From a virus: DNA of 21,760 nucleotides. The stretch lies in IMG/VR virus record IMGVR_UViG_3300033153_002770, positions 1 to 21,760 of that record; one strand, written 5' to 3'. The position numbers and the translations under genes are program-made. The number at the start of each line of letters is the position of its first letter. Positions within the stretch are counted from its first letter, which is position 1. The notes under the pieces are model-generated. The model saw nothing but the letters and a program-made list of their open reading frames with translations, was not told the origin of the DNA and made no database searches. Positions 1,192 through 15,583 of the stretch are shown one piece after another.

Positions 1192-2733
1192 ATGGGTACA
1201 AAACACATATCAAATAAAAAAGAAACTTTCAAACTAATACAATCCGCAGTAGAAAAACTCGTGGATACTATAAAGCCAACATTTGGCCCAGCAAGCAACA
1301 AAGTTGTAATTGATAAAATACCATACAGAATGGTTGTGGATGACGGAGTACAGATAGCTAGAGACTTCCAATTAGATGACGAACAAGAGAACGCAATAGT
1401 CAATTTTGTAAAAGGTGCAGCAATCAAGACAAACGACAGGGCAGGTGATGGCACAACAGGCGCTATGATCATCCTACAAGCCCTTGTAAGAGAGATTGGC
1501 AGAGAAATCGACCCAAAGGGTCATTCAATAGAAAGAGAGCTTAAAAAAGGCGTACAAGAGGTTATTGAACAACTGAAAGCCAAAGCCACACCAATCGAAT
1601 CAAAGGAAGATTTGAAGAAAGTAGCTATGGTATCTTTTGATGATGAAGGAATTGCAAACCTAATCGCAGACATGTATCACAAAATAGGCAAAGATGGAGT
1701 GGTAACATTAGCGAGATCAAACACAATGGACACCTACACCGAACTAACCGAAGGTGTAAAGATAACAAACGGATACATCAGTCCTTACATGGTGACAGAT
1801 GCAGAGCGAATGGAAGCAGTGATCGAGAAACCATACATTCTATTAACAGACTACCGACTAACCGAATCATCAGATATAATGCCAATACTAGAAAAGATGG
1901 TAAAAGCAGGCAAACATGACCTAGTGGTAATAGCAGAAAACGTAGAACAACAAGCACTAGCAACCATCGTGTCAAACCTAAGCACTGTGATGAACAGACA
2001 AACAGGCAAAACAGGCATGCTACGTTGCGTAGCAATCAACGCACCAAAGGTAGCAAACCAAAAGATATTCCTAGAAGATCTAGCAATGATGACAGGTGGT
2101 ACACTCTTTACAGAATCAATGGGAGATACACTAGAGGGTGCAGAACTAAAAGACTTAGGCAGAGCAGAAAGGTTCATAAGTAAACGTGATGAGAGTATCA
2201 TCGTAGAACCAAAAGGAAACAAAGAGGATGTAGACTCAGCAGTAAAATCTTTGAAACAAGCAATTGAAACTGAAGTAAAAGAATCAAACAGAAAAGAACT
2301 AGAACAGAGAGTAGGAATGTTCACAGGCACACTAGCGGTAATCAAAGTAGGCGCACCAACTGACGAAGAACAGAAAGCACTACAATACAAGGTAGAAGAT
2401 GCAGTAAACTCAGTGAAATCAGCATTCCAAAACGGAGTAGTATGTGGCGGAGGTTTAGCACTAAGAGGCATCACAACATCAAGCCCGATCCTAAACAGAG
2501 CATTGGAATACCCTTCATACCAACTATTTATAAACATGGAGATGCAATACCCACTACTAGCAGAAGGACAAGCACTAAACGTAATCACCGGGGAAACAGG
2601 CCCATACCTAGAAGTAGGTGTAATTGACCCAGTAGATGTTTTAATCGCAGGAGTAGAGAGCGCAGTATCAATCGCATCAATCCTAGCAACAAGCGCAGGA
2701 ATGATTTGTGAAACTAGGGATGAAGAAAAATAG
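1192..2733 (+). CDS. groEL: GroEL-type chaperonin (60 kDa family)
   Basis: This 513-residue protein spans the complete equatorial-intermediate-apical-intermediate-equatorial order of group I chaperonins. ATP-site features are present: TFGPASN at 30-36 (for the usual TLGPKGRN), the catalytic-loop Asp in GDGTT at 85-89 (equivalent of E. coli Asp87), the Asp of KVEDA at 400-404 (equivalent of Asp398) and VVCGGG at 416-421. The apical domain carries NGYISPYMV at 193-201. The C-terminal IDPVDV...A-x-SIASILAT-SAGMI block is complete, but the Gly-Gly-Met tail of cellular GroEL is missing: the protein ends TRDEEK. With groES upstream it makes a self-contained folding machine, probably for virion proteins (inference). 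The divergent GPASN text and missing tail mark a phage lineage, not a recent host copy. No Shine-Dalgarno is present. Confidence 0.95.
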   Translation: MGTKHISNKKETFKLIQSAVEKLVDTIKPTFGPASNKVVIDKIPYRMVVDDGVQIARDFQLDDEQENAIVNFVKGAAIKTNDRAGDGTTGAMIILQALVREIGREIDPKGHSIERELKKGVQEVIEQLKAKATPIESKEDLKKVAMVSFDDEGIANLIADMYHKIGKDGVVTLARSNTMDTYTELTEGVKITNGYISPYMVTDAERMEAVIEKPYILLTDYRLTESSDIMPILEKMVKAGKHDLVVIAENVEQQALATIVSNLSTVMNRQTGKTGMLRCVAINAPKVANQKIFLEDLAMMTGGTLFTESMGDTLEGAELKDLGRAERFISKRDESIIVEPKGNKEDVDSAVKSLKQAIETEVKESNRKELEQRVGMFTGTLAVIKVGAPTDEEQKALQYKVEDAVNSVKSAFQNGVVCGGGLALRGITTSSPILNRALEYPSYQLFINMEMQYPLLAEGQALNVITGETGPYLEVGVIDPVDVLIAGVESAVSIASILATSAGMICETRDEEK

Positions 2734-2783
2734 TATGGAGATGGGAATTGTACACACAACAAAAAGCAGTTAAGATATAAAAA

Positions 2784-2827
2784 ACACCACCCTACAGCTC
2801 CCCTTACGGGGCAAATATATATGGTGT
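2784..2827 (+). other. Stem-loop downstream of groEL
   Basis: An outer stem ACACCA (2784-2789) / TGGTGT (2822-2827) encloses a compact CCCC-TTAC-GGGG hairpin (2800-2811). It lies 50 bases after the groEL stop, a normal place for a terminator or a 3' mRNA-stabilising structure. No T-run follows, so intrinsic termination is not well supported. Confidence 0.4.
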
Positions 2828-2881
2828 CTATCAGGGATATATATATTCATACGCTCTCATCTTCGTGATGGGGGTTGTGGG

Positions 2882-3030
2882 GTGGTGAGTGTTTATTCAC
2901 CACTCTGTATAACAGAGTAATCATACCACGGAGGTTTGAAATGCTTCACACTGAATGGTTTTCTGTCTCATACAAACCAAGCGGGGTATATTTCCTAACC
3001 GCATTGTATGGGGTGGTGAGTATACATATA
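2882..3030 (+). promoter_or_regulatory. Promoter-like structured block, copy A of a duplicated cassette
   Basis: The block starts with a hairpin GTGGTGA/TCACCAC (2882-2903). It is followed at once by CTCTG and a -10-like TATAAC (2908-2913), the latter inside a CTCTGT-ATA-ACAGAG palindrome (2903-2917). Downstream, ACCAC (2925-2929) can pair with GTGGT (near 3014-3018). This pairing would enclose two hairpins, one with arms GGTTTG/CAAACC and one with arms GCGG/CCGC. The 25 bases 2888-2912 recur with one mismatch at 4279-4303, where the -10-like text is TATAAT. The GGGGTGGT end also recurs. No good -35 sits 17 bases upstream, so a promoter call is tentative. The hairpin-plus-TATAA architecture is what is conserved. 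Confidence 0.4.
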
Positions 3031-3045
3031 GGTTACAAAAGCTAA
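2941..3045 (+). CDS. Possible 34-residue leader peptide with a strong ribosome site
   Basis: A GGAGG at 2930-2934 sits 6 bases before ATG 2941. The frame runs 34 codons to TAA 3043-3045 (MLHTEWFSVSYKPSG... ending GYKS). Strong Shine-Dalgarno sequences are otherwise rare in this window, which makes this one stand out. The frame lies inside structured block A. Copy B of that block does not keep the frame, which argues against a conserved peptide. It may be a leader peptide, a toxin-like small protein or chance. Confidence 0.25.
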   Translation: MLHTEWFSVSYKPSGVYFLTALYGVVSIHIGYKS

Positions 3046-3128
3046 TTACAAATATTTAAAAATAATGACAACACTATGTTAACCATACGAAGATACTAAA
3101 CGGAATAGCTATAAGCGAATAATACAAA

Positions 3129-3200
3129 CTATGCAACTTTGTATACATTCTTGCATAGATAGATACAAACTGTTCATCGAATAGGTGTAATTACACCTAT
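3129..3200. promoter_or_regulatory. Candidate operator region: inverted repeat plus perfect 20-base palindrome
   Basis: CTATGCAA (3129-3136) and TTGCATAG (3151-3158) are exact inverted repeats around a GTATAC centre. Twenty-two bases later, ATAGGTGTAATTACACCTAT (3181-3200) is a perfect 20-base palindrome. Both have the form of dimeric repressor sites. They lie directly upstream of structured RNA copy 1 and are absent from the shorter corresponding stretch before copy 2. No cognate regulator gene is visible in this window. Confidence 0.4.
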
Positions 3201-3211
3201 AGTATACCTAT

Positions 3212-3337
3212 TAGATACCTTTCACTTGAATAGCGAAGACTCGCTGGTGAGCATCCCTCACATCAAGAACAATTCAAAACACCTATTGTCCACCTCTACT
3301 GCTATCAGGTGTAGGGGTTCTAGGTGAAAGTTATTTA
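3212..3337 (+). ncRNA. Structured RNA candidate with pseudoknot, copy 1
   Basis: The first 58 bases (3212-3269) are identical to 4427-4484, and the last 17 (3321-3337) to 4527-4543. Predicted fold: closing stem CTTTCAC (3219-3225)/GTGAAAG (3324-3330); a branch TTGA/TCAA (3226-3229/3263-3266) holding two hairpins AGCGA/TCGCT (3232-3245) and GTGAG/CTCAC (3247-3261); then hairpin CCTCTAC/GTAGGGG (3293-3299/3311-3317), whose loop AGGT (3307-3310) can pair with ACCT (3281-3284) as a pseudoknot. Copy 2 keeps every helix with compensatory changes. I do not recognise a known riboswitch, ribozyme or RNA family. It could be a free small RNA or a cis element of the transcript that also carries the tRNAs. 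Confidence 0.6.
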
Positions 3338-3339
3338 GA

Positions 3340-3516
3340 TAGTTATAATCACGAGTGGCGGAATAGAAAAGCTATGAGGGTAGGGGTGCACGATAAAAAG
3401 AGCCTACCTGGAAAATCTGCAAGGTGACTATACGAGTAAAAATACTGTTTAAGGGTTGTAACGTGACAGTTGAAACCATCTCGTCAAATCCTTGCCTTGT
3501 GGTTATAGATATTTAT
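3340..3516 (+). other. Folded non-coding stretch between RNA copy 1 and the tRNAs
   Basis: No gene is visible. A TATAAT lies at 3344-3349 without a matching -35. Clear pairings are GGTAGG (3379-3384)/CCTACC (3403-3408), and a nested series GCAAGG (3419-3424)/CCTTGC (3490-3495), ACGAG (3432-3436)/CTCGT (3480-3484), ACTGT (3444-3448)/ACAGT (3466-3470). The start, CACGAGTGGCGGAATAG, resembles the 5' part of a tRNA-Leu, but no complete cloverleaf can be drawn. It may be a decayed tRNA, a processed leader for the tRNA transcript or an unrelated small RNA. Confidence 0.35.
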
Positions 3517-3587
3517 AGGTGATTAGTGTAACGGCAACACTTCGGCTTCCAAACCCGACATTCAGAGTTCAAATCTCTGGTTACCTG
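3517..3587 (+). tRNA. tRNA-Trp (anticodon CCA)
   Basis: A full cloverleaf of 71 nt can be drawn. The acceptor is AGGTGAT/GTTACCT (two wobble pairs), the D stem is GTGT/ACAC with loop AACGGCA, and the T arm is CAGAG-TTCAAAT-CTCTG. The anticodon stem TCGGC/CCCGA has one C-C mismatch next to the loop TTCCAAA, so the anticodon is CCA (3549-3551). The discriminator base is G73, as in bacterial tRNA-Trp, and the arm lengths match bacterial tRNA-Trp closely. No CCA end is encoded. Reading it as tRNA-Gly (TCC) would break the anticodon stem. TGA is still used as a stop by these genes, so no recoding is implied. Confidence 0.8.
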
Positions 3588-3599
3588 CAAGGTATAAAC

Positions 3600-3670
3600 A
3601 GCTGGATAGAGAAATGGCATCTCATCGCTCTCATAAGGCGGAGTTACAGGTTCGAATCCTGTTCGAGCTA
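3600..3670 (+). tRNA. tRNA with CAU anticodon (Met, or Ile2 reading AUA)
   Basis: A 71-nt cloverleaf starts 12 bases after the Trp tRNA. The acceptor AGCTGGA/TCGAGCT has one G-G mismatch, the D stem is GAGA/TCTC, the anticodon stem is TCGCT/GGCGG with loop CTCATAA (anticodon CAT at 3632-3634), and the T arm is ACAGG-TTCGAAT-CCTGT. The discriminator is A73. The 1-72 pair is A-T and the anticodon stem lacks three G-C pairs, so it is not an initiator. It is either elongator Met or the Ile2 type, whose C34 is changed to lysidine to read AUA. AUA is frequent in these genes, which favours Ile2 but does not prove it. Confidence 0.82.
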
Positions 3671-3684
3671 CTAAAAGCCACTAT

Positions 3685-3996
3685 ATGAAACAACAAATAA
3701 CCCTAGAAAATTGGAATGAGTTGAGTGATGAGGAGAAAAAGAAATTTTGGATTGCGCATTCACCTAAATTCAATAAAGGGCTAACCACTCGAGAATTAAA
3801 ATATTTTAATTTCCCAACAATAGGTCAACTTATAGAGTTCTTGGGGGATGATATGGTTGGAATGTACTGGTGTGATAAGAATAAAGACGGGACAGAACAA
3901 TGGTGGTGGGTAGTAACAAGTGATTCTAATGGTGAAGAATACTTTGCTGATGAACTAATAGACGCACTCTGGGAAGCAACAAAACATAAACTATGA
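3685..3996 (+). CDS. Small acidic/aromatic protein, function unknown
   Basis: The protein has 103 residues and starts 14 bases after the tRNA. It has a helix-rich N-terminus (LENWNELSDEEKKKFW), then FPTIGQLIEFLGDD, a Trp-rich strand EQWWWVVTSD and a C-terminal helix ADELIDALWEATKHKL. The 'IGQLIEFLG...DALWEA-x-K-x-KL' pattern is one I associate with small early phage proteins of unknown role (memory). There is no signal or membrane segment. The stop overlaps the next start as ATGA, so the two are translationally coupled. Confidence 0.75.
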   Translation: MKQQITLENWNELSDEEKKKFWIAHSPKFNKGLTTRELKYFNFPTIGQLIEFLGDDMVGMYWCDKNKDGTEQWWWVVTSDSNGEEYFADELIDALWEATKHKL

Positions 3997-4175
3997 GTAT
4001 GAAAATACCAAAAACAATAAAACAAATAGAAAAACTACCAATACCCTTACAATACGCAATAGGCAACCATATCTGTTTACAACTTGATAAGGCAACCTAC
4101 AGATGGACTGATATGCCACAAATGTTAAAAGATTATAATAAAAATATGAAAGACGAAACAAAAATAAATATATAA
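3993..4175 (+). CDS. Very small basic protein, function unknown
   Basis: The protein has 60 residues and starts in an ATGA overlap with the previous stop (a second ATG at 3999 is possible). It is basic with hydrophobic patches (KLPIPLQYAIGNHICLQLDKATYRW) and resembles no family I know. The coupling to the upstream gene is the main support. It ends where the second non-coding stretch begins. Confidence 0.55.
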   Translation: MSMKIPKTIKQIEKLPIPLQYAIGNHICLQLDKATYRWTDMPQMLKDYNKNMKDETKINI

Positions 4176-4270
4176 TGAGCATTTTGCATCCTAGAAATAG
4201 GGTATTATCCCATCGTGTTACATCTTACTCGTGCTTAGCCTTGATTGGCTTAGAAAAAAGGGCAGGAGTG
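4176..4270 (+). other. Non-coding stretch leading into cassette copy B
   Basis: No gene is supported. The one structure I see is an imperfect hairpin CTTAGCC/GGCTTAG (about 4234-4252, one T-T mismatch), followed by an A-run rather than a T-run, so it is not a good + strand terminator. An open frame crossing 4231-4533 has no ribosome site and covers the duplicated RNA, so I reject it. Confidence 0.3.
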
Positions 4271-4278
4271 GGGTGCAA

Positions 4279-4360
4279 AGTGTTTATTTACCACTCTGTA
4301 TAATAGGGTGTATTAACAACACCACGTACAAGTGTAATTTGTACGGGGTGGTAAGTAGAC
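4279..4360 (+). promoter_or_regulatory. Promoter-like structured block, copy B of the duplicated cassette
   Basis: Bases 4279-4303 repeat 2888-2912 with one change and end in a perfect TATAAT (4299-4304). Downstream, ACCAC (4321-4325)/GTGGT encloses the hairpin GTACAA/TTGTAC (4326-4344). Copy A keeps the outer pairing but has a different, longer insert, so the outer arms are conserved while the inside varies. Bases 17 upstream of TATAAT do not resemble TTGACA, so use by the host sigma70 enzyme alone is doubtful. A phage-modified polymerase or an activator is possible. Confidence 0.45.
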
Positions 4361-4426
4361 ATAAAAACCAAATATTCAAATCTAAGCTATGTAAACTATA
4401 TGGATACAACACCAACAGGAATGTAA

Positions 4427-4543
4427 TAGATACCTTTCACTTGAATAGCGAAGACTCGCTGGTGAGCATCCCTCACATCAAGAAGTTACAACACCTTTGT
4501 CCACCCCTGCTTCAGGTACAGGGGGTTAGGTGAAAGTTATTTA
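4427..4543 (+). ncRNA. Structured RNA candidate with pseudoknot, copy 2
   Basis: This is the second copy of the element at 3212-3337. All helices are kept: closing stem 4434-4440/4530-4536, the two-hairpin branch inside the identical 58 bases, and the 3' hairpin CCCCTG (4504-4509)/CAGGGG (4519-4524) with loop AGGT (4514-4517) facing ACCT (4493-4496). Against copy 1 this hairpin shows an A-U to G-C exchange and a G-U to G-C exchange on paired positions, which supports the fold. The element ends 3 bases before a GGAGG ribosome site, so in this copy it is a plausible cis-regulator of the 59-residue gene that follows. Confidence 0.6.
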
Positions 4544-4557
4544 TATGGAGGAAACAT

Positions 4558-4737
4558 ATGACCACAGACTACAACTTCAATTGGGATAATTTATCTAAAC
4601 AACCAAGTATGTCATCAGTAGACGAAATATTCGGTGATCTAACACCACCAAAACAAGGGAAACCATCACCTGAAGCCATTCAATGGATGAAAGAGAAATA
4701 CCCCGGACTATTCCCTGTGTGGCCACAAACAAATTAA
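4558..4737 (+). CDS. 59-residue protein behind the structured RNA, function unknown
   Basis: The ATG has an exact GGAGG at 4547-4551 with 6 bases spacing, one of the very few strong ribosome sites here. The protein reads MTTDYNFNWDNLSKQPSMSS, then VDEIFGDLTPPKQGKPSPEA, then a Trp/Pro-rich end (QWMKEKYPGLFPVWPQTN). It looks like a short partly disordered adaptor with a C-terminal helix. It precedes the small terminase by 16 bases and is probably co-transcribed with it. I do not recognise the family. Confidence 0.65.
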   Translation: MTTDYNFNWDNLSKQPSMSSVDEIFGDLTPPKQGKPSPEAIQWMKEKYPGLFPVWPQTN

Positions 4738-4753
4738 ACAATAAATAACAAGT

Positions 4754-5290
4754 ATGCCAAAAGCAGGAAGACCATCAGTAAAAACAGAAGAAGTCATTCG
4801 TAAAATAAAGGAAGTGGCGGCTCTTGATGGTACTATAGAAGAAATGGCTTACTACAGCGAAGTTCACGTAGGAACTATATATAGATGGATGGAAGAAGAC
4901 CCAGAATTAAAGGAGTCTATACAGGCATTACGTCAAAGACCTATCCTAGCAGCAAGGCAGACAGTAATAAAAAGGATGAATGAGAGCTACGGAAATGCAA
5001 TGGATTATTTAAGCAGAAAGAAACAAAAAGAGTTCAACAAAGCCCAAAATATAGACATAACATCAGGTGGCCAAGTACTAGGAAAAGAAGAAGATCAAGG
5101 CGCAGTAGATGAATTTCATAATAAATTAGTAGAGAACAGAAAGAAAAGAGCTTTAGAACAAGCAGCTATAGAAGGAGAACTGGTAGAGGGGGTGGCTGAA
5201 GATGAGTCACCCGGAGTGCAAGAAGAAGAAATACTCCAAGAAGGAAGCCCAAACAATGCGCAACCTACGAAAGAAATCAAAGCAAGGTAG
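4754..5290 (+). CDS. Terminase small subunit
   Basis: The protein has 178 residues. The N-terminal third is a helix-turn-helix DNA-binding domain: GRPSV, then IKEVAALDGTIEEMAYYSEVHVGTIYRWMEEDPE, whose 'xTIYRWM-x-x-DPE' recognition helix is typical of phage small terminases. Next comes a helical oligomerisation region with ARQTVIKRMNESYGNAMDYLSRKKQKEF, also typical of the family. The last 50 residues are Glu-rich and low in complexity. Small terminase recognises the phage DNA end or pac site and hands it to the large subunit (encoded from 6613). The tail region overlaps another gene in a different frame, which explains its odd composition. Confidence 0.88.
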   Translation: MPKAGRPSVKTEEVIRKIKEVAALDGTIEEMAYYSEVHVGTIYRWMEEDPELKESIQALRQRPILAARQTVIKRMNESYGNAMDYLSRKKQKEFNKAQNIDITSGGQVLGKEEDQGAVDEFHNKLVENRKKRALEQAAIEGELVEGVAEDESPGVQEEEILQEGSPNNAQPTKEIKAR

Positions 5291-5542: not shown

Positions 5543-6616
5543 ATGAAGTACTTATCATTATTCAGTGGGATCGGTGGATTCGAACTGGGAATACAACAAG
5601 CTTATGAAAGCAATTTTAAACATGCACCTGTCGGCTCGGAATCCGAACAGGAAGAACGCTCACAAAGGGGGGAGCGGACCACTGATCAGCACAGAGTATT
5701 GTTACACTCTGGAGACAGGTCAACCCCATTATGTATTGGATATTCAGAAATCGACAAATACGCCACCCAAATCTACAACAAACACTTTAACCACAAAAAC
5801 TATGGGGACATTAAAAACATTAAAACAGATGACCTACCGAGTTTTGATATGCTCGTGGGAGGGTTTCCTTGCCAATCATTCAGTATTGCGGGGAAAAGAG
5901 GAGGGTTCGCTGATACCAGAGGCACGCTCTTCTTTGAAATCGCTAGGATTGCTAGGGAAAAACAACCACGCCTTTTACTCCTTGAAAACGTCAAAGGGCT
6001 TTTATCTCACGACAAAGGAAACACGTTCACTACCATCATCTCCACGCTTGATGAACTGGGGTATGACCTACAATGGCAAGTGCTCAACAGCAAGAATTTC
6101 GGTGTCCCCCAGAATAGGGAAAGAGTGTTCATTATCGGACATCTTAGAGGAACAAGTAGACCCGAAGTATTTCCTTTCACAGGAGCAAGCACAGAAACTA
6201 TTAAACAAATAAATCAACCTAAACACTCAAACGACAGAGTATACTCAGAAGAAGGAATAAGCCCAACACTAAACACAATGCAGGGTGGGAATAGACAGCC
6301 ATTTATAGCACCAGTTTTAACACCAGACAGACCAAACAAAAGACAAAACGGTAGAAGATTTAAAGAAAATGGAGAACCATCATTCACTCTAACAGCCCAA
6401 GATAAACACGGAATATACGATGGTGCAAAAATTCGCAGACTAACCCCAACAGAATGTGAAAGACTACAAGGATTTCCTGATGGGTGGACAGCAGAAGGTT
6501 TACCTCTAGAGGATGAATCATCACTAATAATGATTTCAGACACACAAAGATACAAGACACTAGGAAACGCAGTCACAGTCAATGTGATACGAGAAATAAT
6601 TAAAAAACTACAATGA
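5543..6616 (+). CDS. DNA (cytosine-5-)methyltransferase, Dcm family
   Basis: The protein has 357 residues from ATG 5543; an in-frame TTG at 5531 is less likely. All signature motifs are present: I LSLFSGIGGFELG (4-16, AdoMet binding), IV GGFPCQSFS with catalytic Cys110, VI LENV (147-150), VIII QNRERVFIIG (190-199), IX RRLTPTECERLQGFPDGWT (298-316) and X GNAV (341-344). The target-recognition region is about 220-295. It transfers methyl groups to C5 of cytosine in double-stranded DNA, probably to evade host restriction (inference). Between motif I and YSEIDKYA there is an extra polar stretch of about 40 residues (23-64). A 215-codon frame is open inside this gene (see findings). It overlaps the large terminase start as ATGA. 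Confidence 0.95.
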   Translation: MKYLSLFSGIGGFELGIQQAYESNFKHAPVGSESEQEERSQRGERTTDQHRVLLHSGDRSTPLCIGYSEIDKYATQIYNKHFNHKNYGDIKNIKTDDLPSFDMLVGGFPCQSFSIAGKRGGFADTRGTLFFEIARIAREKQPRLLLLENVKGLLSHDKGNTFTTIISTLDELGYDLQWQVLNSKNFGVPQNRERVFIIGHLRGTSRPEVFPFTGASTETIKQINQPKHSNDRVYSEEGISPTLNTMQGGNRQPFIAPVLTPDRPNKRQNGRRFKENGEPSFTLTAQDKHGIYDGAKIRRLTPTECERLQGFPDGWTAEGLPLEDESSLIMISDTQRYKTLGNAVTVNVIREIIKKLQ

Positions 6617-9165
6617 GCATCCATTCATGGCTAATACAAAACGAGATCAAGAACGAGAAGGGGGACTTAATAGAGTTCGATGACCACCCTTTTCTTTTTG
6701 ACATCTACTCAGACCAATCACAGAACCTCACAGTAATGAAAGCAGCACAGATAGGACTAACAACGTTGGAGTTTCTGAAATGCTTTTATGATGCCAAGAA
6801 CTACAAGATGGATATGATCTATTGTGTGGATGAAGAAACTGAGATACTAACAAAGAGAGGGTTTGTATTCCAAGATGATCTACAGCTACACGATAAAATA
6901 ATTACACTAGATAAGACTGGCACAGTTCAATGGTCTGAATTAGATGAGATATTTAGAAAAGAAGTTGATATGGATTGTTTAGAGTTTAACGCAAGGAATT
7001 TTAATGCATTAGTCACTCCAAACCATAGATGGCTACTACAACCATACAGAGGTGCTGGAGAAATGTTTTTTAGAGAGACAGAGGAAATGATAGGTAGGTA
7101 TGCAAGAATACCAAAGACACTAGAACATGATGGGGCAACACATAAGATTAAAAGATACAAAGACTGGTATGTAGAACTACTAGCATGGATATTTTCAGAA
7201 GGGTATTATTGTAAGCAAAAGAATAAGAATGATTACTCGGTAATAATTTCACAGTCAGAATTAGAAAACCCTCAATGGTGTGACGAGATAAGAGGCATAT
7301 TTAGAAAGGCAAAAATAGAATGGAAAGAATATAATTATAGTGGAATAATACAGTTTAGATTTGCATACAGACTAGGAGAAAAGATAAAAAGAATATTTCC
7401 AACAAAAGAACCAAGTATAGAATTTATAAACGAGCTAACAAGAAGTCAGTGTAAGTTATTTGTAGATACATTCGCAAAAGGTGATGGATGGTGTGATTCT
7501 TCAGGAACATGGGCTATAACACAAAAGAGCAAACAAACCACAGAAGCATTGTGTGTAGCAGCGGTACTAGCAGGATACGCACCAAGCATTCAATACCCAA
7601 CAAAGGCAAGGGATTGGCACACAATAAGGATGACACAATTCAAGACAGTAGAAACAGCAGAACTAAAGCCAGTTATAAAAAGATATAAAGGTATTATTTG
7701 GTGTCCATCAACAAAGTATGGAACTTTTTATGCAAGAAGAAAAGGCAGATGTTACTGGACAGGCAACACACTGCCAACAGACGCAGATGTGAAAGTGATG
7801 GTAGGTGGAAAATTCAATCGTATCATAGCCATGAACCAATGCATGCTAGATGATGTAGCTGACAAAGACTCCGTAGAACAAAAGAAAGTAGGAGAGTCAA
7901 TGATATACTTCAGAGGAACATGGACCAAGAAAGCAGCGATGATGATCCCATCAGACAGATTGATGCATGACGAGAAAGATACCAGCAAACTAGATGTAGT
8001 AGCAGACTACCAAGCCCGTCTACAACATTCGAAGTTCAAACAAACCCACACATTCAGCCATCCAAGTCTACCAGAAACAGGAGTACACAATGACTGGATA
8101 GCATCAGATCAAAAGCACTGGCATGTAGAATGTCCGAAATGTAAGAAATGGCAATTTTTAAACTGGGACTTAGAGAACCCAGACAAGATGAGCATATGCA
8201 TGGAACGTAAAGTATTCCAATGCAAGAAGTGCAAAGAACCACTCCCGGACTACGTAAGGAGGAACGGAAGATGGATAGCCAAATTTCCCGGTAGATCATG
8301 GAGCGGATATTGGGTAAACTTATTGATGGCCCCTTGGGTCTCAGCACAAGAACTGGTAGACAAATTCAATCACAAAGATACAACCGAAGAGTTTTGGTAC
8401 ACAAAGATACTAGGACTACCATATGCAGACGCAGCCAGTAAACTACTAAGGACATCATTCTTCCAGAACCTCACAGGAGCGTTGTGGACACCCACAGCAG
8501 ACGAAAAGATAGTAATGGGAGTAGATACAGGTTTAAGGATAGATTACGTCTTAGGAAGCAAAAAAGGACTATTCTACGAATCAGACGCAAAAGACTATGA
8601 CGACCTAGATGCACTAATGGAGAGATACCCAAAGATGATAGCTGTAATAGATTCAGGTGGAGATTTAATAGGCTCAAGAGCATTCCAAGAGAGATGGCCG
8701 GGAAGAATATGGCTTTGTGCTTTAACAGGCGACAAGAAAGGCAAACAACTAGTAACATGGGGTAAAGGGGACGAAACAGGATCATGTAGCGCAGACCGAA
8801 ACAAGATGATTCAATTGGTAGTAGATGAATACAGATACAAACGAATCCCGGTACATGGAACAGAAGAAGACTGGTTTGATTTTTGGACTGACTGGAACAA
8901 TCTATCCAAGATGAAAATTGTAGACCCAACTACAAATGAAACCAAAGGATACAAATGGATACGATCAGGACGTGACCATAGAGCCTTAGCAAACGTATTC
9001 TGGAGAATAGGGATGAGTAGATTCGCAGGCATGGGTGATGTAATGGAAGAACCACTAGAATTGAAACCAAACAGCTACATGGTAAACCCAGACCACTCAG
9101 TGTCATTTGACCCGGAGAAGATGTTTGATTTAATGGAAGAGGAAGAAGAAGAATGGCGCATATGA
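6613..9165 (+). CDS. Terminase large subunit (GpA-like) interrupted by an intein
   Basis: The precursor has 850 residues; without the intein (71-385) the packaging ATPase/nuclease is 535 residues, close to the GpA family. N-extein: the ATPase P-loop-like KAAQIGLTT (43-51). C-extein: TLPTDADVK (386-394), an acidic pair DE (453-454) in the Walker B position, a zinc ribbon with Cys507/510 and Cys537/540, then the nuclease part with Asp638 (VMGVDTG) and Asp680 (AVIDSGGD). The enzyme pumps DNA into the capsid through the portal and cuts it. It starts in an ATGA overlap with the methyltransferase and ends in an ATGA overlap with the next small gene. The active enzyme depends on splicing. Confidence 0.93.
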   Translation: MSIHSWLIQNEIKNEKGDLIEFDDHPFLFDIYSDQSQNLTVMKAAQIGLTTLEFLKCFYDAKNYKMDMIYCVDEETEILTKRGFVFQDDLQLHDKIITLDKTGTVQWSELDEIFRKEVDMDCLEFNARNFNALVTPNHRWLLQPYRGAGEMFFRETEEMIGRYARIPKTLEHDGATHKIKRYKDWYVELLAWIFSEGYYCKQKNKNDYSVIISQSELENPQWCDEIRGIFRKAKIEWKEYNYSGIIQFRFAYRLGEKIKRIFPTKEPSIEFINELTRSQCKLFVDTFAKGDGWCDSSGTWAITQKSKQTTEALCVAAVLAGYAPSIQYPTKARDWHTIRMTQFKTVETAELKPVIKRYKGIIWCPSTKYGTFYARRKGRCYWTGNTLPTDADVKVMVGGKFNRIIAMNQCMLDDVADKDSVEQKKVGESMIYFRGTWTKKAAMMIPSDRLMHDEKDTSKLDVVADYQARLQHSKFKQTHTFSHPSLPETGVHNDWIASDQKHWHVECPKCKKWQFLNWDLENPDKMSICMERKVFQCKKCKEPLPDYVRRNGRWIAKFPGRSWSGYWVNLLMAPWVSAQELVDKFNHKDTTEEFWYTKILGLPYADAASKLLRTSFFQNLTGALWTPTADEKIVMGVDTGLRIDYVLGSKKGLFYESDAKDYDDLDALMERYPKMIAVIDSGGDLIGSRAFQERWPGRIWLCALTGDKKGKQLVTWGKGDETGSCSADRNKMIQLVVDEYRYKRIPVHGTEEDWFDFWTDWNNLSKMKIVDPTTNETKGYKWIRSGRDHRALANVFWRIGMSRFAGMGDVMEEPLELKPNSYMVNPDHSVSFDPEKMFDLMEEEEEEWRI
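6823..7767 (+). mobile_element. Intein with LAGLIDADG homing endonuclease in the large terminase
   Basis: This 315-residue insertion is in frame inside the terminase (residues 71-385). It opens with Cys (CVDEETEILTKRGFV, intein block A), has block B TPNHRW (135-140), and ends FYARRKGRCYWTGN followed by Thr, giving C1, C-terminal Asn and a +1 Thr. The residue before Asn is Gly instead of the common His, a variant I associate with phage inteins. Two LAGLIDADG-like helices, ELLAWIFSEGYY (188-199) and LFVDTFAKGDGW (282-293), each end in an acidic residue, so it may still home. Joining the flanks gives MDMIYTLPTDAD, a smooth terminase sequence. The intein therefore sits exactly in the conserved 'Y-TLPT' motif. 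Confidence 0.93.
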
Positions 9166-15063: not shown

Positions 15064-15082
15064 ACCTGTATAACAATTTAAT

Positions 15083-15583
15083 ATGCAATCAACTGCACTA
15101 TTTACGAATTTTTCAAAAGAAGAATTTGAAGGATTCTGGAACGGAAAAGGTAGAAAATTCCAACCCGGTCAATCCATGCACATGCCAGATTATTTGGCAA
15201 AACATTTCGCAAAACATCTAACCAATAGAGAACTTATTCGTAAGGATGATAAAGGTAGTCTGATCTACAGTGAAGGAGAAAAAATGACCTCACCTAAAAG
15301 ACCAGAAGATGTTCCATTATTCATGGATTTATTCAACAAAGCCTACACTCCTGAAACAGAAGACATAGGAGAAGAAGGCGATGACGTAGATGCACTGATT
15401 GCCTCCGCTAACGCAAATAGAGCTGAAGGTGAGGATGTCTCAATGAACGCAGAACCACCAAAAACTCTAACACCAGCTGAAAAAGGCAAAATAACAAAGG
15501 CTAAGAACAAAGCAATAGCAGATGCTAAACAAGACCCAAGCGGTCCACAAGTAATAACACCACCAGACTTTGATGATGAATAA
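15083..15583 (+). CDS. Acidic protein of the head-tail region, function unknown
   Basis: The protein has 166 residues. The N-terminal 60 residues (FTNFSKEEFEGFWNGKGRKFQPG, then MPDYLAKHFAKHLTNRELI) look folded and follow a 'W-x-G-K-x-x-F-x-P-G-x-x-M-x-M-P-x-x-x-A-x-H-F-A-K-H-L' pattern that I have met in unnamed phage structural proteins. The second half is acidic and disordered, ending PPDFDDE. Position suggests a virion or assembly factor. No catalytic motif is visible. Confidence 0.7.
   Translation: MQSTALFTNFSKEEFEGFWNGKGRKFQPGQSMHMPDYLAKHFAKHLTNRELIRKDDKGSLIYSEGEKMTSPKRPEDVPLFMDLFNKAYTPETEDIGEEGDDVDALIASANANRAEGEDVSMNAEPPKTLTPAEKGKITKAKNKAIADAKQDPSGPQVITPPDFDDE

Follow-up and report, generated by a model that had tools for sequence, protein, structure and literature searches.

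A duplicated RNA module of long-stem domains between the groEL, tRNA and terminase genes of a likely Patescibacteria phage

We propose, tentatively, that the window (the whole stretch of DNA analysed here, a virus record of 21,760 bases) carries a duplicated, cis-acting intercistronic RNA module of a Patescibacteria phage, in which tandem domains are each closed by a stem of 17-26 pairs. The role of this module would probably be RNase III-type processing, or protection, of the tRNA and terminase-operon transcripts. An earlier description made from the letters alone (the sequence-only reading) had reported two copies of a strongly structured, non-coding phage RNA of no known family, and in this it is borne out by the fold z-scores, the long stems and the lack of an Rfam match. 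It overlooked the domains upstream: each copy forms just the 3' end, as the last domain, of a longer module that is present twice. The module is larger than first reported and has a plausible ordinary role in transcript processing. RNA control in Patescibacteria phages is little known. A covarying module between tRNAs and packaging genes offers a concrete target for the study of RNA processing in them, and is an example of an element that RNA annotation by family overlooks. The features to which we refer are the following.

2785 to 2887, + strand: domain 0 of module 1; closing stem of 27 positions (20 Watson-Crick, 6 G-U, 1 mismatch), branched interior
2889 to 3027, + strand: domain A of module 1; closing stem of 24 positions (17 Watson-Crick, 6 G-U, 1 mismatch), interior of about 90 nt
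3028 to 3210, + strand: linker in module 1 that has no counterpart in module 2; a perfect 20-nt hairpin, ATAGGTGTAATTACACCTAT, lies on the 3' side
3211 to 3338, + strand: domain B, copy 1; closing stem, two small hairpins and a middle hairpin at 3293-3317
3336 to 3515, + strand: domain C, in module 1 only; closing stem of 20 positions, 19 of them paired
3517 to 3588, + strand: tRNA-Trp (cca)
3600 to 3671, + strand: tRNA-Met (cat)
4174 to 4288, + strand: domain 0' of module 2; stem of 20 pairs, the inner ten of which are homologous to domain 0
4280 to 4362, + strand: domain A' of module 2; stem of 24 pairs, free of mismatches, around a shorter interior than in domain A
4426 to 4544, + strand: domain B', copy 2
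4547 to 4551, + strand: GGAGG, 3 bases beyond copy 2; Shine-Dalgarno of the ORF that starts at 4558
4558 to 4737, + strand: 59-aa ORF (ORF59), no family assigned, directly downstream of copy 2
4754 to 5290: terminase small-subunit-like gene, after the 59-aa ORF

The genes of the window encode GroES (661-948), GroEL (1192-2733), a terminase small-subunit-like protein, a cytosine methylase, the large terminase, a portal-like protein and the major head protein; module 1 lies between groEL and tRNA-Trp, and module 2 between a 60-aa ORF and the 59-aa ORF. Upstream of each copy of domain B stand two further long-stem domains, 0 and A before copy 1 and 0' and A' before copy 2, and the direct repeats between the modules also span 2877-2918 and 4268-4309. 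Module 1 as a whole covers 2785-3515, about 730 nt. Its domain C ends at 3515, one base before tRNA-Trp starts at 3517; copy 1 had been said to precede the tRNAs, and tRNA-Trp and tRNA-Met do lie downstream of it, but this structured domain (3336-3515) intervenes. ARAGORN, with introns allowed, found no further tRNA or tmRNA in 2701-4760. The domains are closed separately and do not form a single long-range fold. The outer nine pairs of domain 0' overlap domain A'. A 100-aa ORF with a GTG start (4231-4533) runs across module 2; module 1 has no listed counterpart, and we judged this ORF spurious.

The module stands out in a long-stem scan of the whole window, in which a stem needed 17 or more pairs and could contain one mismatch and a loop of up to 160, but no bulges. 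On the + strand, the scan matched 2785-2887, 2889-3027, 3211-3338, 3336-3515, 4174-4288, 4280-4362 and 4426-4544, together with a variant inside domain A (2958-3021) and one stem in the terminase gene (7691-7856); across 21.8 kb of the gene strand, hardly any stem of this length lies outside the modules. The - strand gave a single stem (368-475, 18 pairs), and in 10 random controls no stem exceeded 19 pairs. For the + strand, local fold z-scores fall to -5.0 near 2751, -4.7 near 4251 and -3.6 near 3201 (mean -0.57), but the local z-score alone is not decisive, since some coding windows are nearly as low. Each of the stems holds 3-6 G-U pairs, which would be A.C mismatches on the other strand; this suits RNA transcribed in gene orientation, and does not suit a palindrome in the DNA. 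This bears on the idea of a DNA-level element, whether a site for packaging or replication close to the terminase genes or a miniature mobile element bounded by terminal inverted repeats. The two copies do lie within 1.3 kb, beside the terminase small-subunit-like gene, and among relatives long-stem elements are present, absent or replaced. Given the G-U pairs, the near absence of long stems in the - strand reading, the two-sided changes that keep RNA pairing, and the lack of a repeat copy elsewhere in the viral contigs, genomes, phages or plasmids searched, we consider an element of this kind very unlikely.

Comparison of the two modules, which is a comparison of two sequences in a register set by hand and not a statistical covariation test, lends good support to the predicted helices. 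In helix 0, all 10 of the 10 homologous pairs are kept through three consecutive two-sided changes (C-G to G-C, A-T to T-A and C-G to T-A) and one change on a single side. In helix A, 23 of the 24 pairs are kept, with one two-sided change, one one-sided change and one mismatch in module 1, and the domain B hairpin keeps 6 of 7, with one change of each kind. The upstream domains add four two-sided compensatory changes to that of the domain B hairpin, and it is in them that the covariation appears better. When the partner strand was slid by 1-3 bases, no two-sided pairs arose and fewer cells were paired.

The two copies of domain B are identical over 58 bases at the 5' end (3212-3269 and 4427-4484) and over the last 17 bases, just as the sequence-only reading had placed them within 3212-3337 and 4427-4543, around a diverged middle in which 8 of 44 ungapped positions differ, plus indels. 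If all sites drift alike, the chance of 75 unchanged bases at the divergence rate of the middle is about 3e-7, and for this reason the ends of domain B look constrained. Patchy gene conversion, as an alternative to selection, would produce a similar picture. Measured against dinucleotide shuffles, copy 1 folds with a z-score of -3.95 and copy 2 with one of -3.02. The 7-base closing stem of the earlier description exists, but is only part of a stem that has 17-18 pairs in the long-stem scan (3211-3338 and 4426-4544). Compensatory changes in the middle hairpin hold up in part: across the copies, 4 of its 7 pairs are unchanged, 1 has changed on both sides and 1 on one side (G-U to G-C), but 1 is lost in copy 2 (C-G to C.A), which makes the proof thin. 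Two other parts of that fold are also weak. A pseudoknot between ACCT and AGGT had been proposed, but the match is invariant between the copies and a 4-base match of this sort occurs by chance in 58% (copy 1) and 32% (copy 2) of shuffles. The two-hairpin branch was to be closed by TTGA/TCAA, a stem that is in competition with a longer form of the closing stem; its pairing probability in the nested partition function is 0. Within the window, the longest antisense match to the shared 58 nt is 10 bases.

Copy 2 was correctly described as ending 3 bases before a strong ribosome site (GGAGG at 4547-4551, ORF start at 4558), and this position could point to a cis-regulatory leader. In such a leader, domain B would sense a protein of the phage or the host, or else a ligand, and control translation of the 59-aa ORF and the terminase genes, while copy 1 would control expression of the tRNA unit. 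The invariance of the 5' half of domain B between the copies would suit this role, and the sequence would let CACCT pair instead with the strand of the closing stem that reads AGGTG. In the partition function, however, this alternative has a probability of 0. GGAGG lies outside the fold and stays unpaired in the minimum-energy structure of 4420-4557, and in this fold we found no alternative pairing that masks the ribosome site; in addition, no ORF with a ribosome site stands directly behind copy 1. A leader of this kind therefore seems to us improbable.

The main rival to a cis-acting module is a stable, abundant, trans-acting non-coding RNA beside a tRNA island, similar to ROOL or GOLLD, with module 1 as its full form and module 2 as a shorter paralogue. 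ROOL and GOLLD are large phage RNAs that are often found near tRNA islands (PMC12286853). A member of this class would also be expected to be an abundant, stable RNA and to assemble into a cage-like oligomer. Here, too, a large and elaborate phage RNA lies near tRNAs (tRNA-Trp at 3517 and tRNA-Met at 3600), its tandem domains come directly before them, and domain B is constrained in sequence. The differences lie in its tandem domains, which are closed separately, in module 2, which runs into a ribosome site directly before a protein gene, and in the failure of any model to match it: with Rfam 15 at the gathering score, only the two tRNAs pass in the window, permissive filters bring no match either, and the ROOL and GOLLD models give no line up to E = 10 in 2734-4560. 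Relatives, moreover, have single elements filling the gaps between genes. We thus regard a trans-acting RNA as possible but rather unlikely.

Searches for homologues of domains A and B, by sequence and by two-sequence model, returned none. A two-sequence covariance model (R1), which had been suggested as a check, could be built from copies 1 and 2 and searched, but without a match in 80 capsid relatives, 49 whole virus records, five genome loci and three of their whole genomes. The single R1 match in 380 host-phylum genomes (27 bits) lay antisense inside a GTPase gene and was rejected as chance. Exact and loop-only patterns and 16-mers gave nothing in viral contigs, or chance matches in other sequence; no match came from a domain A 21-mer search, from a 22-mer search of genome contigs or from blastn against phages, and the one 23-base match from blastn against plasmids was taken as chance. 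Nearer relatives, sought from groEL and ORF59, were not found. Because the reach of a two-sequence model is limited, distant homologues of the domains may have been missed.

For the cis-acting module, which we prefer, we suggest the following scheme. The predicted stems of 17-26 pairs lie between groEL, the tRNAs and the ORF59-terminase genes. Since no sigma70-like promoter or terminator-like site was scored on the + strand of 2600-4800, we infer that the region from groEL to the terminase genes would be transcribed as a single message. The long stems would fold while they emerge and, being double-stranded, could serve as substrates of host RNase III or else block other nucleases. In this way, the message for ORF59 and the terminase, like the tRNAs, would be excised or be given protected 5' ends. 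Domain B, which is kept in sequence as well as in fold and would remain just upstream of the released unit, may be a landmark that a nuclease, the ribosome or a phage protein recognises specifically. Cleavage by RNase III, protection and a specific binder of domain B are all putative steps here. What favours a role in cis is the intergenic position of the module, the lack of a scored promoter or terminator on the + strand and the habit of related phages. Against it, the 5' half of domain B is kept letter for letter, which exceeds the needs of a plain double-stranded processing site, and successive stems are redundant for processing. Independent transcription may also occur, as Patescibacteria promoters may escape a sigma70-type scan. 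The motif CTGTATAAYA has three occurrences (2905, 4296 and 15066; 0.14 expected), and we rejected it as a module promoter because in both modules it lies within a paired arm of domain A. Its third copy, at 15066, stands just before an ORF at 15083 and could be a promoter.

This scheme recalls two known systems. Like RNase III sites of the T7 R1.1 type, the elements are long stems between phage genes, in gene orientation, for which no strong sequence consensus is needed; unlike those sites, they have large branched interiors, stand in tandem and belong to a duplicated module with a sequence-constrained domain, and their cleavage is only predicted. The intervening sequences (IVS) of bacterial 23S rRNA are likewise stem-closed cassettes of 100-200 nt that are present or absent between relatives, and in the known case RNase III excises them. 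The cassettes described here, in contrast, lie between phage genes and tRNAs and not in rRNA, and their excision is putative.

Long stems also occur between genes in related phages. A stem of at least 18 pairs is present in 12 of 198 intergenic gaps, one of the 12 being in the window, against 0.5 in dinucleotide shuffles, and one of at least 20 pairs in 8 gaps against 0.0, when stems with a loop of 25 or more are counted; two of the records, L020 and L021, are nearly the same, so that slightly fewer of these gaps are independent. At these loci, Rfam finds tRNAs only, and the elements have no sequence similarity to those of the window. Several fill most of the stop-to-start gap (90% in L037, 90% in L039 and 87% in L044), so that their nearness to start codons does not count as evidence of its own. 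The tRNA-Met of L020 is flanked by two long stems, one ending at its first base and the other beginning at the base that follows it; most tRNAs in the relatives have no adjoining long stem. The elements at 4438-4544 of L025 and 4091-4240 of L039 occupy the same intergenic spot, with flanks that are 80-84% identical, but are themselves non-alignable. Between L044 and L055, the alignment jumps from 312 bases that hold the element (2491-2802) to 3 bases (L055 2651-2655). This spot in L055 resembles an empty site for the element of L044, and at least one long-stem element is thus apparently present in one relative and absent from another. By eye, the stem bases of the relatives' elements resemble one another (ATTGTTT...AATAAT); this resemblance is unscored and was not used. 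L055 and L092, which agree in length and match position, seem to be one 10,576-base contig that stands once as a virus record and once as part of a Parcubacteria bin.

Since these analogous cassettes share no sequence, they suggest that across related phages selection acts on the stem and its position; for the same reason, a function in common with the stems of the window rests on analogy. The counts speak for intercistronic RNA cassettes in Patescibacteria phages as a class prone to turnover, whose function would be assigned by analogy. It is conceivable, if doubtful, that such phages in general carry fast-evolving, long-stem cassettes of this type, concentrated between the groEL and terminase or portal genes and exchanged or rebuilt at fixed spots. 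The duplicated multi-domain array of the window would then be the most elaborate of them, and the cassettes would represent a new system by which viruses of ultra-small bacteria process RNA, protect it or interfere with the host.

Relatives of the capsid protein at 69-87% identity are numerous in viral contigs, and 4 of the 5 that come from genome contigs lie in Patescibacteria, Parcubacteria or Jorgensenbacteria bins, the other in an Ignavibacteriae bin. The capsid of a TM7 phage is 31% identical to that of the window. Taking these together, a Patescibacteria host is likely for the virus of the window. Of 59 genomes sampled from the phylum to which the Jorgensenbacteria relative belongs, 53 encode RNase III, the likely enzyme in the scheme above; the window's own host is a putative one. 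Some two dozen relatives also have GroEL, in most cases encoded upstream of the terminase. The large terminase gene (6613-9165) has an apparent intein-like insert, judged by eye, with CVDEETEIL near residue 73 and ...YWTGN|T before the protein resumes, and its PHROG terminase matches fall mainly at residues 383-805. Large late ORFs contain repeated segments (16570-16687/19095-19212 and 17051-17140/20941-21030) that are 70-83% identical and are probably structural-protein modules.
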